A stretch of 64,000 nt of DNA from Blastomonas sp. AAP53 (lineage in GTDB: Bacteria; Pseudomonadota; Alphaproteobacteria; Sphingomonadales; Sphingomonadaceae), in assembly GCF_000331245.1 (NCBI RefSeq), contig NZ_ANFZ01000009.1, forward strand, positions 744,001-808,000, given 5' to 3'. Position numbers and translations under genes: made by a program. Within the stretch, counting starts at the first letter, position 1. Each line of letters opens with the position of its first letter. Below the pieces are notes generated by a model. The model saw only the letters and a program-made list of their open reading frames with translations. It had not been told where the DNA came from and did no database searches. This document shows, piece by piece, positions 21,214-34,610 of the stretch.

Positions 21214-21339
21214 CACGCGCACCAATGGCACAGCAGAGCTATCGCTGGCTTGTCACCCGCGCGCGCCACCCCGATCGATGTCGTCACGCGAGGATAGACC
21301 TCGATCACGCTGAACACCCCGTCCGCGCAAAGGACTGAC

Positions 21340-21525
21340 CGCGTCAGGCAGGTCTCCTGGCTCCCGGGTCGTCACGTTCGCCCCGCCTTCCCAGGTGCAA
21401 AGCACCCAGTGGCATAAGGGGCGACCGCTCGCCGGTCACAGTTGCGGGGACAGCCGCGGATTACAGGGCTAGATACCTGCTTCCGCGTTCCCTATTAATC
21501 CCATCTCTGGGAACCTGTCGCCTCG
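21340..21525 (-). promoter_or_regulatory. Cobalamin riboswitch controlling the btuB operon
   Basis: On the minus strand the core elements occur in the right order: GGGATTAATAGGGAA, CCGCGGCTGTCCCCGCAACT with TGTGA after it, then TGCCACTGG, and the B12 box GCCAGGAGACCTGCC (plus positions 21347-21361). These are the conserved segments of the adenosylcobalamin aptamer. Ends are approximate. High B12 should repress uptake and assembly genes downstream. The aptamer points away from cobU, whose transcript would run antisense to it or start inside it. Confidence 0.95.
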
Positions 21526-21565
21526 CCGCACTATTGCGAGTGAGAACGCATTGCAAGGGAAATGG

Positions 21566-30526: not shown

Positions 30527-32845
30527 ATGAAGTCTGTCGCCACTCGTACCAGCAAAGGCCCGGCCAACCCGATGCGCATCCTGCTCATCTGGACGCTGGT
30601 ATCTGGCCTGCTGTTCGGGCTGGCAGAGTTTGGCGCACCGCTCGACGATGTATTTCGGGTCGCGCGCAACAAGTTTCGCGAACACGATGCCAGCGGCCAG
30701 GTGGTGGTCGTGGGAATCGATAGCGCCGCCCAGCAGGAACTCGGCGACTGGCCATGGCCCGCAGACCGCTATGCACGGATGGTCGAGCAACTGGGCAACG
30801 CTGGTGCCCGCAACATCTATTTCGATTTTCCTCTCAATGTCAGCAAGGACGACGTCCACCTGAAGCTGCTTGCCAGCACCATGGCAAAGCTCGACGGCAA
30901 GGTTCACATTGCCGCCAATTTTGCACCTGAAACCGCTGAGAACGAAAAAACCCAGCTGTTGCCGCTACCACAGCTCCGCAATGTCACAAGCCTGATCAAC
31001 ACCAACGTGCGGACCAATGGCTTCAACACAGTCTGGACTGTTCCGTACAGCAACCGCGTCGCCGGTATTCCCGTTCCTTCGCTCGCTTCTGCGGTCTCGG
31101 ACGAAACCGGGGGCGCCGCCGAGGCTTTCCCGATCGACTATTCGATCAACATGGACTCGCTCCCGTATATCAGCGCGGCGCAGGTTCTGCGGTCCAATGC
31201 CAGCATACCCGCCGTCAAGAACCGCGACGTCGTGATAGGCACCAATGCAACGGGCATTGGCAACCGATACGCGGTTCCTGGCAATCGCCCCGCTGCCAGT
31301 GTCTTCGTGTCTGCGCTTGCTGCAGAAACGCTGCTGGCCCAGCGCCCGGTGCAATACGGCTGGTGGTGGCCATTTGCGATTGCTTTGGGGGTCTGTGCCC
31401 TGATGCTGCGCGTATCGCGCAGCAGACTCGTGCTGGGCATGCTCATCCTGCTGCCCATCTGCTCGATCGGCCTGCCGCTGGCGCTGGAAAGTCTGGGCTA
31501 TTTTACCTCCATCATGCCAGCCACGATCCTGATGCTGGGCTCGATGGGGCATCTCGCCTGGAGGCTGCACCGTCAGCGCTACGATGAGCGCGGCATGATC
31601 AACGAAGTGTCGGGCCAACCCAATCTCAACGCATTGCGGGCGCTCGGCACAGACAGCCAGGACGGGCTGATCGCGGCACGCATCCACAATTATGCCGAAG
31701 CCGCAACCGCGCTGCCCGCCGCTGCAGAAAAGGAGCTGGTCGACCAGATCATCATGCGCCTGTCGCTCGGCAATGGCGGATGCAAGGTCTATCAGGGCGA
31801 CGAAGGCATCTTCATGTGGCTGATTCCCGCATCGTCGATCAACAATGTCGGCGACCAGCTGGCCGGGTTGAGCGCCATTTTCCGCAGCCCCGCCAACATC
31901 TCGGGCCGACTGATCGATCTTGGCATTGCCTTTGGTGTGGATGCCGATCCGGGTCGATCGATCCAGAGCCGTATGTCGAGCGCCCTGCTGGCGTGTCAGG
32001 AAGCCCAGAATGCCGGCGAACACTGGCGCGTTTACGACCCTACCAAGCTGGAGGCGACCGAATGGCGCGTGACCATGCTGGGCGAGCTGGATGCGGCCAT
32101 CGACAACGGCGAAGTGTGGGTCGCTTTCCAGCCCAAGCTGGATCTGCTCTCTGGCGAGATCTGCGGCGCCGAGGCACTCGTCCGCTGGACGCACCCTGAA
32201 AAGGGTCCGATCAATCCCGAAGAGTTCATCACAGCCGCCGAACGCCATGACCGAATCGAGAAGCTGACCGAGCATGTGCTGAACCGCGCCGTGCAGGTTG
32301 CATCCCGCCTCAACCGGGATGGCAGGAAATTCGATATGGCGGTAAACCTGTCACCCAGGCTGATCGGCCACGCAAACCTGAAACCCATGGTGATCCAGAC
32401 CCTCCGCCGCCATGGCCTGGCTGCGGAACGGCTGATCCTGGAGATCACCGAAACCGCAGCCATGTCGAGCGCTGAAGCTGCGATGCAGGAGCTGCGCGAC
32501 CTGCGCAGCATTGGCCTGCAGCTATCCATCGACGATTACGGCACAGGCTTTTCCACGCTCGACTATCTCAAACGCTGCCCCGCGACAGAGCTCAAGATCG
32601 ACCGCAGTTTTGTTCGCATGCTGGTGAGCAGCCGCTCTGACCGGATCATGGTCAACTCGACGATCGAACTGGCGCATTCGCTGGGCGAGGAAGTGGTGGC
32701 CGAAGGCGTCGAGGATAACGAAACGTTGCAATTGCTCGGCCAGATGGGCTGCGACAAGGCGCAGGGCTATCTGATCGCACGGCCGATGCCATATGAGGCG
32801 CTGATCGACTATCTGGCGAATTATTCCTCAGCGAAAGCCGCCTGA
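30527..32845 (+). CDS. CHASE2-degenerate GGDEF-EAL protein, probable cyclic-di-GMP phosphodiesterase
   Basis: A 772-residue membrane protein. An N-terminal CHASE2-like extracellular sensor (about 35-270, with VVVVGIDSAAQQELGDWPWPAD) is followed by about three transmembrane helices (280-350), a degenerate GGDEF domain and a C-terminal EAL domain. The GGDEF site is replaced by QGDEG, so the cyclase is probably dead; the EAL motif (GAEALVRW) and DDYGTGFST are intact, so hydrolysis is the likely activity. GAGGAAG is present before the start. Confidence 0.92.
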   Translation: MKSVATRTSKGPANPMRILLIWTLVSGLLFGLAEFGAPLDDVFRVARNKFREHDASGQVVVVGIDSAAQQELGDWPWPADRYARMVEQLGNAGARNIYFDFPLNVSKDDVHLKLLASTMAKLDGKVHIAANFAPETAENEKTQLLPLPQLRNVTSLINTNVRTNGFNTVWTVPYSNRVAGIPVPSLASAVSDETGGAAEAFPIDYSINMDSLPYISAAQVLRSNASIPAVKNRDVVIGTNATGIGNRYAVPGNRPAASVFVSALAAETLLAQRPVQYGWWWPFAIALGVCALMLRVSRSRLVLGMLILLPICSIGLPLALESLGYFTSIMPATILMLGSMGHLAWRLHRQRYDERGMINEVSGQPNLNALRALGTDSQDGLIAARIHNYAEAATALPAAAEKELVDQIIMRLSLGNGGCKVYQGDEGIFMWLIPASSINNVGDQLAGLSAIFRSPANISGRLIDLGIAFGVDADPGRSIQSRMSSALLACQEAQNAGEHWRVYDPTKLEATEWRVTMLGELDAAIDNGEVWVAFQPKLDLLSGEICGAEALVRWTHPEKGPINPEEFITAAERHDRIEKLTEHVLNRAVQVASRLNRDGRKFDMAVNLSPRLIGHANLKPMVIQTLRRHGLAAERLILEITETAAMSSAEAAMQELRDLRSIGLQLSIDDYGTGFSTLDYLKRCPATELKIDRSFVRMLVSSRSDRIMVNSTIELAHSLGEEVVAEGVEDNETLQLLGQMGCDKAQGYLIARPMPYEALIDYLANYSSAKAA

Positions 32846-33019
32846 GCAGCGTTCGCTGCCCCGCCGGTACTCCCCATTCTGCACCGGTACAGTCACGTCC
32901 GATCACGCAACCGGCTTGGCTGCGACATCCTGTGTTAACCTCTTGTTGAGCAATTTACATTCTGTTAGCCTTGTTTTGGGCGCGTATCGTATTCGCGCTC
33001 AAATAAGGAGTGCTAAAAA

Positions 33020-33088
33020 ATGGCAAAGCGTACCAAACAGCCTGCACGCGGCTTCTGGGATTGGCTCATGGGCGGCGGCTGGAACTAA
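33020..33088 (+). CDS. Small 22-residue tryptophan-rich peptide gene
   Basis: ATG at 33020 is preceded by AAGGAG at 33005-33010 with ideal nine-base spacing, and the stop at 33086 is followed within 31 bases by a perfect 12-bp terminator. The N-terminal half is basic (KRTKQPAR) and the C-terminal half is hydrophobic with three Trp (FWDWLMGGGW). The layout SD-ORF-terminator argues for a real short gene. A TTAA-N7-TTGA site resembling a CtrA box lies at 32935-32949. Function unknown; membrane-interacting peptide or leader are both possible. Confidence 0.6.
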   Translation: MAKRTKQPARGFWDWLMGGGWN

Positions 33089-33118
33089 TTCGGAAGATTT
33101 TTCCGTAATTTCAACCGG

Positions 33119-33151
33119 ATGGCCTCGGCTGCAAAGCCGAGGCCATTTTTT
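33119..33151 (+). terminator. Rho-independent terminator after the small peptide gene
   Basis: ATGGCCTCGGCT and AGCCGAGGCCAT form a perfect 12-bp stem with a GCAA loop, followed by a T-run. It belongs to the small-peptide transcript; the next gene is on the other strand and ends 175 bases further on. Confidence 0.92.
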
Positions 33152-33326: not shown

Positions 33327-34610
33327 CTACTTGCGCTGAAAATTCGGCGCGCGTTTTTCGAGGATCGCATCGATCGCTTCGCGATGGTCATCCATCTGCT
33401 GGAGCACGCCTTGCCAGATCGCCGCCTGATCGAGATGTTCGGCCAGCGAGACATCGCGCGCGTCCTTGATCAGCCTCTTGGTCTTGCGGATTGCTGCGGG
33501 CGGAAACTGGGCGACCATGCGCGCCAGTTCCATCGCACGCGGCATCAATTCCGCAGCCGGCACGACTTCGGAGACAAGGCCGTATAGCTCGGCCTTGGCA
33601 GCATTGATAAACTCACCGGTCAGCATCATCTGGCTGGCTTTGGCCAGTCCGACGATCCGCGGCAACAGCCAAGCCCCGCCATCACCCGGAATGATCCCCA
33701 CGCGCAGGAAGCTTTCGGCAAAAACCGCATCGTCTGCAGCGATTCGGATATCGGCCATGCAGGCCAGATCGCAGCCCGCCCCGATCGCATGCCCGCGCAC
33801 CGCAGCGATCACCGGAACAGACATGCGGTCCATGGTCAGCGGAATGCGCTGGATCTGCGTCTTGTACCAGTTTTCGAGCTCCATCGGGCTCATGTGCTGC
33901 TCAGCCGTCAGCGCCTTGATCTGCTTGATGTTGCCCCCCGAACAGAAGCCCGGCCCATCCCCGGTCAGCACGACGCAATCGATACCGGGGTCGGCATCGG
34001 CCACCTCCAGCGCGGCGACGAGCGCGCCGATCACCTCTTCGGACAGCGCATTGCGCGTTTCGGGCCGGTTGAGCGTGATGGTCGCGATCCGATCCTCGAC
34101 CGCATATCGCACCGGCGGCGATGGTGCATCGGCCTCGCGCGCGATCCGGTCCGCGTAGGTGCCGCCGTGGAAAAGCAAGGGCGGCCTGCCCTCGCTCTCG
34201 TAATCGATGACCTCGCCCACCATGATCACATGATCGCCGCCCTCGTAAAGGTGCCGCGTGTTGCACACCAGACGCGCCGAGCAGCCGGGAATGCGTGGCG
34301 GGCCAGTGTCGCCGAAGTCCAGCCCTGCGAACTTGTCTTCGGCGCGTGAGGCAAACCGGTTCGAGAGTTCATCCTGATCGCTTGCAAGAATATGGACCGC
34401 GAACTGACCCGCCTGTTCGAACGCCGCCATGGAACGCGCCGAGCGCGCCAGCGACCACAGGACCAGCGGTGGATCGAGCGAGACGGAATTGAAGCTGTTG
34501 GCCGTGACGCCCACGGCCCTGCCTTCGGCATCGCGGGTGGTAACGATGGTGACGCCGGTGGCGAACTGCCCCAGTGCATTGCGATAGGTTCTTGGATCGA
34601 AATGGGCCAT
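33327..34610 (-). CDS. Fusion of flavin reductase domain with crotonase (enoyl-CoA hydratase/isomerase)
   Basis: A 427-residue two-domain protein. Residues 5-155 form a flavin reductase-like domain (ALGQFATGVTIVTT, VTANSFNSVSLDPPLV, FAVHILASDQDELSNRFA). Residues 168-427 form a crotonase with oxyanion-hole blocks FCSGGNIK (about 222-228) and RGHAIGAGC (272-280). The two Glu of classical hydratases appear replaced (Asp 281 and Phe 301 by eye), and IPGDGGAWLLPR resembles PaaG-type isomerases. The two are joined by a short linker with no stop or frameshift. The domains normally occur on separate proteins; function unknown. Confidence 0.9.
   Translation of the reverse strand: MAHFDPRTYRNALGQFATGVTIVTTRDAEGRAVGVTANSFNSVSLDPPLVLWSLARSARSMAAFEQAGQFAVHILASDQDELSNRFASRAEDKFAGLDFGDTGPPRIPGCSARLVCNTRHLYEGGDHVIMVGEVIDYESEGRPPLLFHGGTYADRIAREADAPSPPVRYAVEDRIATITLNRPETRNALSEEVIGALVAALEVADADPGIDCVVLTGDGPGFCSGGNIKQIKALTAEQHMSPMELENWYKTQIQRIPLTMDRMSVPVIAAVRGHAIGAGCDLACMADIRIAADDAVFAESFLRVGIIPGDGGAWLLPRIVGLAKASQMMLTGEFINAAKAELYGLVSEVVPAAELMPRAMELARMVAQFPPAAIRKTKRLIKDARDVSLAEHLDQAAIWQGVLQQMDDHREAIDAILEKRAPNFQRK

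Follow-up and report, generated by a model that had tools for sequence, protein, structure and literature searches.

A 22-codon tryptophan-rich micropeptide gene co-inherited with one clade of CHASE2-EAL proteins in the Sphingomonadaceae

Downstream of a CHASE2-EAL gene in Blastomonas sp. AAP53 lies an unannotated frame of 22 codons, which raises two questions: whether so short a frame encodes a protein at all and, if it does, what that protein acts upon. Proteins of 11-40 residues escape standard annotation, and the frame was noticed by inspection of the 64,000-nt stretch of DNA analysed here (the window). The original prediction described a complete mini-gene, and its frame, Shine-Dalgarno (SD) site, terminator and CtrA-like box were all found at the positions given. 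Together with the gene directly upstream, the locus comprises the following features:

30527-32845, plus strand: CHASE2 / degenerate GGDEF / EAL protein of 772 aa, the conserved upstream partner, with phosphodiesterase residues intact
32935-32949, plus strand: CtrA-like box TTAA-N7-TTGA, a motif match with putative CtrA identity
32953-32971, plus strand: conserved promoter core ATTTACATTCTGTTAGCCT, from the genus alignment, with putative function
32975-33003, plus strand: 5' UTR hairpin GGGCGCG...CGCGCTC, with compensatory changes across the genus that preserve its pairing
33005-33010, plus strand: Shine-Dalgarno site AAGGAG, 9 nt from the ATG
33020-33088, plus strand: 22-codon micropeptide gene, product MAKRTKQPARGFWDWLMGGGWN, from ORF inspection, genus conservation and pN/pS
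33119-33151, plus strand: intrinsic terminator with a perfect 12-bp stem, a GCAA loop and a T run, its pairs covarying in the genus

The frame runs from an ATG at 33020 to a TAA at 33086-33088, and its 22-aa translation carries the three Trp residues and the basic N-terminus that had been predicted, around a Trp-rich core of the type GFWDWLxGG that is predicted to form a short helix. All nine Blastomonas genomes searched encode the peptide (82-100% identity), with a pN/pS of 0.14 in frame vs 1.83 and 1.67 in the shifted frames, and values of 0.05-0.22 were obtained in six further ortholog groups. A chance ORF is ruled out by this genus-wide occurrence and the in-frame ratio. The original prediction would have been abandoned had relatives lost the peptide; in relatives it is retained, most of the changes are synonymous, and divergent orthologs occur family-wide. 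Judged by these comparisons, the 22-aa frame is a genuine protein-coding gene that is selected as a protein, and we infer that it is expressed.

The signals around the frame are conserved as well. The predicted ribosome site is present, GGAGTGCT at the SD is invariant across the nine Blastomonas genomes and the wider SD block GGAGTGCTAAAAATGGCAAAGCGTACCAA is nearly invariant in the genus. The terminator is likewise as described, with arms ATGGCCTCGGCT and AGCCGAGGCCAT (33119-33130 and 33135-33146) forming 12/12 pairs before the T run; its stem begins 30 nt past the stop codon, and it was absent from the list of a simple scan and recovered by folding and later terminator detection. Both the terminator and the 5' hairpin show changes on both sides that preserve their pairs within Blastomonas, and the transcript region folds more stably than shuffled sequences (z -3.9). 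Synonymous positions of codons 1-5 never vary in the genus, which points to an extra RNA-level constraint on the start region. Many orthologs (L108, L131, L133, L139 and others) have their SD embedded in a hairpin, as with CCTCCTGTATCAAACAGGAGG of L131. SD-site pairing is slightly higher in orthologs (0.62 vs 0.52, p 0.019, a weak difference) and the SD in the window is unpaired (pairing 0.14), so the embedded SD hints at translational control in some orthologs that is statistically weak and not seen in the window.

Upstream of the leader, Blastomonas shares a nearly invariant promoter block, GTTAA-N3-CTTGTTGA-C-A-TTTACATTCTG, and the core ATTTACATTCTGTTAGCCT likely includes the -10 element. 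TTAANNNNTTGTTRA has a single match in the whole genome, which is the micropeptide promoter site. Across the family the box takes the consensus TTAA-N3-CTTGTTAACCAT, about 60-70 nt upstream of the peptide ATG, and in the Erythrobacter-like group it has diverged to a shifted motif, TTTAGACTTTACAAAC. A full CtrA site reads TTAA-N7-TTAA; the box in the window is imperfect, with G replacing A in the second half-site, and this genome contains few full TTAA-N7-TTAACC sites. A CtrA-like box scoring 8-9 of 9 was found upstream of 22 of the 40 peptide orthologs; its frequency was 3.1% among 193 other genes and 1.5% among shuffles. Such a box also precedes the EAL genes themselves in six of the 40 peptide-linked cases, where a longer stretch was scanned. 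The near-CtrA site that had been proposed at 32935 is present, and at the level of the family the enrichment of the box supports its putative CtrA identity. CtrA probably activates the peptide promoter, as the motif and its enrichment suggest. Motility and c-di-GMP signalling are reported to be under CtrA control in sphingomonads, where a phosphodiesterase was upregulated together with CtrA; for Sphingomonas, reports describe a phosphodiesterase linked to CtrA and lower c-di-GMP (PMC8921679).

Beyond the genus, a family-level profile search covered 249 genomes and an order-level search yielded further members. The divergent orthologs are 11-42 aa long, occur in dozens of Sphingomonadaceae genera and share the core [FI]W[DES]W[LF]xGG, which in those found by profile follows a basic start ([KR]GFW[DES]W[LFM]xGG). 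Each is a stand-alone gene, and they have a common anatomy of box, short leader (often with a hairpin), SD, short ORF and usually a terminator, the last being detected for 35 of the 40 peptide orthologs. The shortest were missed by every profile and revealed by scanning downstream of EAL orthologs; MFGSIWDWIFN, MFRSIWDWIYS and MAWSIYDWFFG have 11 codons, MFRIWRWFFSDD has 12, and orthologs as small as MFGSIWDWIFN are notable for the limits of gene size. A pattern scan of contigs added hosts such as Sphingobium, Sphingosinicella, Parasphingopyxis, Chakrabartia, Aurantiacibacter and Alteraurantiacibacter, the chance matches elsewhere lying mostly within longer frames or without an SD. At class level, where searches scored only some candidates per genome, no convincing match was found beyond the family Sphingomonadaceae. 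In the pattern scan of GTDB contigs, stand-alone peptide genes adjacent to an EAL gene were confined to contigs that bear a Sphingomonadales label or else a vague or evidently mistaken one, such as L151 ('Proteobacteria') and L168 ('Rhodospirillales'), both of which carry the peptide and the EAL gene. The metagenome contig L151 (JADDQD010000038.1) has two tandem micropeptide copies downstream of its EAL gene (reverse strand, about 2200-2760), each with a terminator; the two peptides are nearly identical, and their DNA differs synonymously (pN/pS 0.05).

The peptide has no counterpart among the catalogued families searched. No profile in Pfam, NCBIfam or PADLOC matched any of 22 family members at E up to 0.1, the best PHROGs match for two of five members was a family of unknown function at E 0.066 or weaker, and Rfam gave only sub-threshold matches on the micropeptide locus, with no family at its cut-off. 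A mobile or phage gene was rejected, as tblastn of the peptide against phages and plasmids returned E about 2 at best. A search of the literature, in libraries that are themselves incomplete, returned no description of this micropeptide gene; public records may already list some of the longer orthologs as hypothetical proteins.

Several other features of the window were recorded. The minus-strand gene at 33327-34610 encodes a 427-aa fusion of an N-terminal flavin reductase (PF01613) with an enoyl-CoA hydratase (PF00378), which has relatives of the same length in Blastomonas L106 and L107 and one of 446 aa in L091. A DUF3667 protein (PF12412; 34746-35885, plus strand) is kept beside this fusion in several loci, and a cobalamin riboswitch (Rfam RF00174, 121.9 bits) lies at 21330-21533 on the minus strand.

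The question of what the peptide acts upon starts from its neighbour, since the micropeptide gene lies directly downstream of the CHASE2-EAL gene in the window, a linkage that the original prediction does not mention, and the same arrangement recurs across the family. In a maximum-likelihood tree of 58 CHASE2-EAL proteins, the peptide marks one clade of 43 members with 100/100 support, made up of 40 with the peptide gene adjacent and three from Blastomonas in which the EAL gene has relocated; the 15 other CHASE2-EAL genes, which form one side of the branch, have none. As some of the labels were assigned by eye, a mechanical criterion was applied as well (an ORF of 9-45 aa with an SD and W.W/Y within 450 nt), and it picked out 36/40 clade members, 0/15 other EAL genes and 1/165 control regions. 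The peptide gene follows on the same strand at 57-358 nt, and in many members of the Erythrobacter-like group just 57-62 nt separate the EAL stop from the peptide ATG. The upstream same-strand gene was the EAL ortholog in 19 of the 21 loci compared and, among named genomes, in 27 of 30 Sphingomonadales matches, the other three being two of the moved Blastomonas cases and one at the edge of a fetched stretch. The outer flanks on both sides differ between genera, and the downstream neighbour, convergent in 13 of 19 cases, is not conserved between them. The peptide was not found in any genome that demonstrably lacks an EAL ortholog. These comparisons show co-inheritance of the peptide gene with one EAL clade.

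In three Blastomonas species (G001, G002 and G007; loci L107, L105 and L145) the EAL gene has relocated and the peptide is kept with its promoter and terminator; the three separations represent one event in a supported clade. The micropeptide unit is thus self-contained, and any action on the EAL protein can occur in trans, for which these loci offer a natural test.

The partner contains CHASE2 (PF05226) and EAL (PF00563) domains. Its EAL catalytic residues E549, N607, E639, D669, D670, K690, E726, E729 and Q746 do not vary among the 43 members of the clade, and the domain matches structures of active phosphodiesterases, aligning with BifA, PdeA, MucR and others (Z above 32); a pattern search of the middle domain returned no GGDEF-type signature for any of the 58 EAL proteins. 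From what is known of the family, the CHASE2 domain would face outward, and the partner is expected to be a c-di-GMP phosphodiesterase governed by it. Few residues set the peptide-linked clade apart from other EAL proteins, and they indicate no binding site.

Because the peptide is co-inherited exclusively with one membrane-bound phosphodiesterase, this enzyme is its most likely target, and a place at the membrane surface is suggested by how short the peptide is, by its basic start and by its aromatic helix. We therefore favour, at a probability of roughly 0.45 and so somewhat short of even odds, the reading that the micropeptide acts on the adjacent CHASE2-EAL phosphodiesterase as a tiny regulator. 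The gene would be transcribed from its own promoter, probably activated by CtrA, and the transcript would end at its own terminator. The peptide would most likely lie at the inner face of the cytoplasmic membrane and there modulate the neighbouring membrane-anchored enzyme (the sign of the effect being as presumptive as the effect itself), which would couple CtrA activity, and with it motility and cell-state control, to c-di-GMP breakdown. AlphaFold placed the core at a pLDDT of about 73 when the EAL protein was modelled with a read-through linker and the peptide, and at 74, with a similar short helix, in the control of linker and peptide without EAL; docking is therefore unsupported and none is claimed.

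It is somewhat unlikely that the translated peptide has another target, such as the membrane, the divisome or the flagellar machinery, and that the two genes are inherited side by side and seldom part because the peptide promoter is located within the 3' end of the EAL gene or close to it. Such an overlap could account for part of the adjacency. The short EAL-peptide distances of the Erythrobacter-like group speak for this reading, as does the separation from the EAL gene that is tolerated in the three Blastomonas species. Against it, the pair is intact in 40/43 members even though spacing reaches 358 nt and the flanks are repeatedly reshuffled, and no genome shown to lack an EAL ortholog yielded the peptide. 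We regard as improbable the proposal that the peptide acts as a signal in the periplasm or outside the cell, where it would be the cognate ligand of the neighbouring protein's CHASE2 sensor; the two would then form a c-di-GMP switch that senses a peptide, a Gram-negative counterpart of the streptococcal peptide-receptor pairs SHP/Rgg and ComS/ComR. This role would suit a tiny peptide that evolves fast but conserves its aromatic core and whose gene adjoins that of a receptor-type enzyme with a presumably outward-facing CHASE2 domain; however, it has a basic N-terminus and no signal peptide, some orthologs are just 11 aa, and the compared loci contain no conserved linked exporter or protease candidate.

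The covarying hairpin and terminator, the stable fold, the invariant synonymous sites of codons 1-5 and the slightly raised SD pairing would also be consistent with a dual-function or regulatory small RNA of about 150 nt in which the ORF is secondary. This is decidedly improbable, since between genera the RNA sequence diverges freely while the W-x-W protein core persists, pN/pS is low in seven groups and no Rfam family was reached; the pure small RNA version is disfavoured by pN/pS. A type I toxin-like membrane peptide, with which the small size, the Trp content and the SD within a hairpin of many orthologs agree, is very improbable given vertical single-copy inheritance with one enzyme gene, the open SD of the window and the lack of a known family in Pfam or PADLOC. 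As for a Trp-codon attenuator with a trpL-type leader peptide, a short ORF with neighbouring Trp codons is indeed followed by a terminator, and the trpL peptide of rhizobia, 14 aa long, does act in trans (PMC7298713), but the reading is extremely improbable. Between the Trp codons sits a conserved residue that is acidic or polar in most cases, nearly all orthologs having a W-[DESRN]-W/Y core with no consecutive Trp run, and one core Trp is replaced by Tyr in several. The variable, mostly convergent flanking genes leave no conserved operon to control, and a cis-attenuator or trp leader is rejected because downstream genes are convergent or unrelated.

Regulation of the adjacent phosphodiesterase by the micropeptide would have partial precedents. 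Small-protein genes also lie beside c-di-GMP enzyme genes in Yersinia (HmsE with HmsD) and E. coli (YcgZ/YmgAB with BluF), where, as here, the neighbour is a membrane or EAL signalling gene. HmsE and YcgZ/YmgAB are, however, much longer and not known to be related in sequence, whereas the Sphingomonadaceae micropeptide is 11-42 aa long with a W-x-W core, and its gene has a promoter and a terminator to itself. The streptococcal SHP (SHP/Rgg) and ComS/XIP (ComS/ComR) systems similarly place a tiny pheromone gene with an aromatic core beside its receptor gene, but the micropeptide has no visible hydrophobic leader or export system, its host is Gram-negative and its partner is a CHASE2-EAL enzyme rather than a cytoplasmic Rgg regulator. 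Like peTrpL / rnTrpL of alphaproteobacteria, whose peptide acts in trans (PMC7298713), the gene is a very short ORF with Trp codons ahead of a terminator, but it lacks the downstream trpE(G) and the Trp run and has another promoter and neighbourhood. The partner itself belongs to the CHASE2-GGDEF-EAL proteins, among which the peptide gene is confined to a single ortholog clade.

The fixed EAL partner makes the micropeptide traceable across the family and provides both a search route and a concrete hypothesis. Should the CHASE2-EAL phosphodiesterase prove to be modulated by the peptide, few regulators of c-di-GMP turnover would be as small, and were it instead a ligand of CHASE2, it would represent a first peptide ligand class for that domain. 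Modulation of the enzyme could reveal what CHASE2 domains respond to, and would tie CtrA control to the lifestyle switch of the Sphingomonadaceae.
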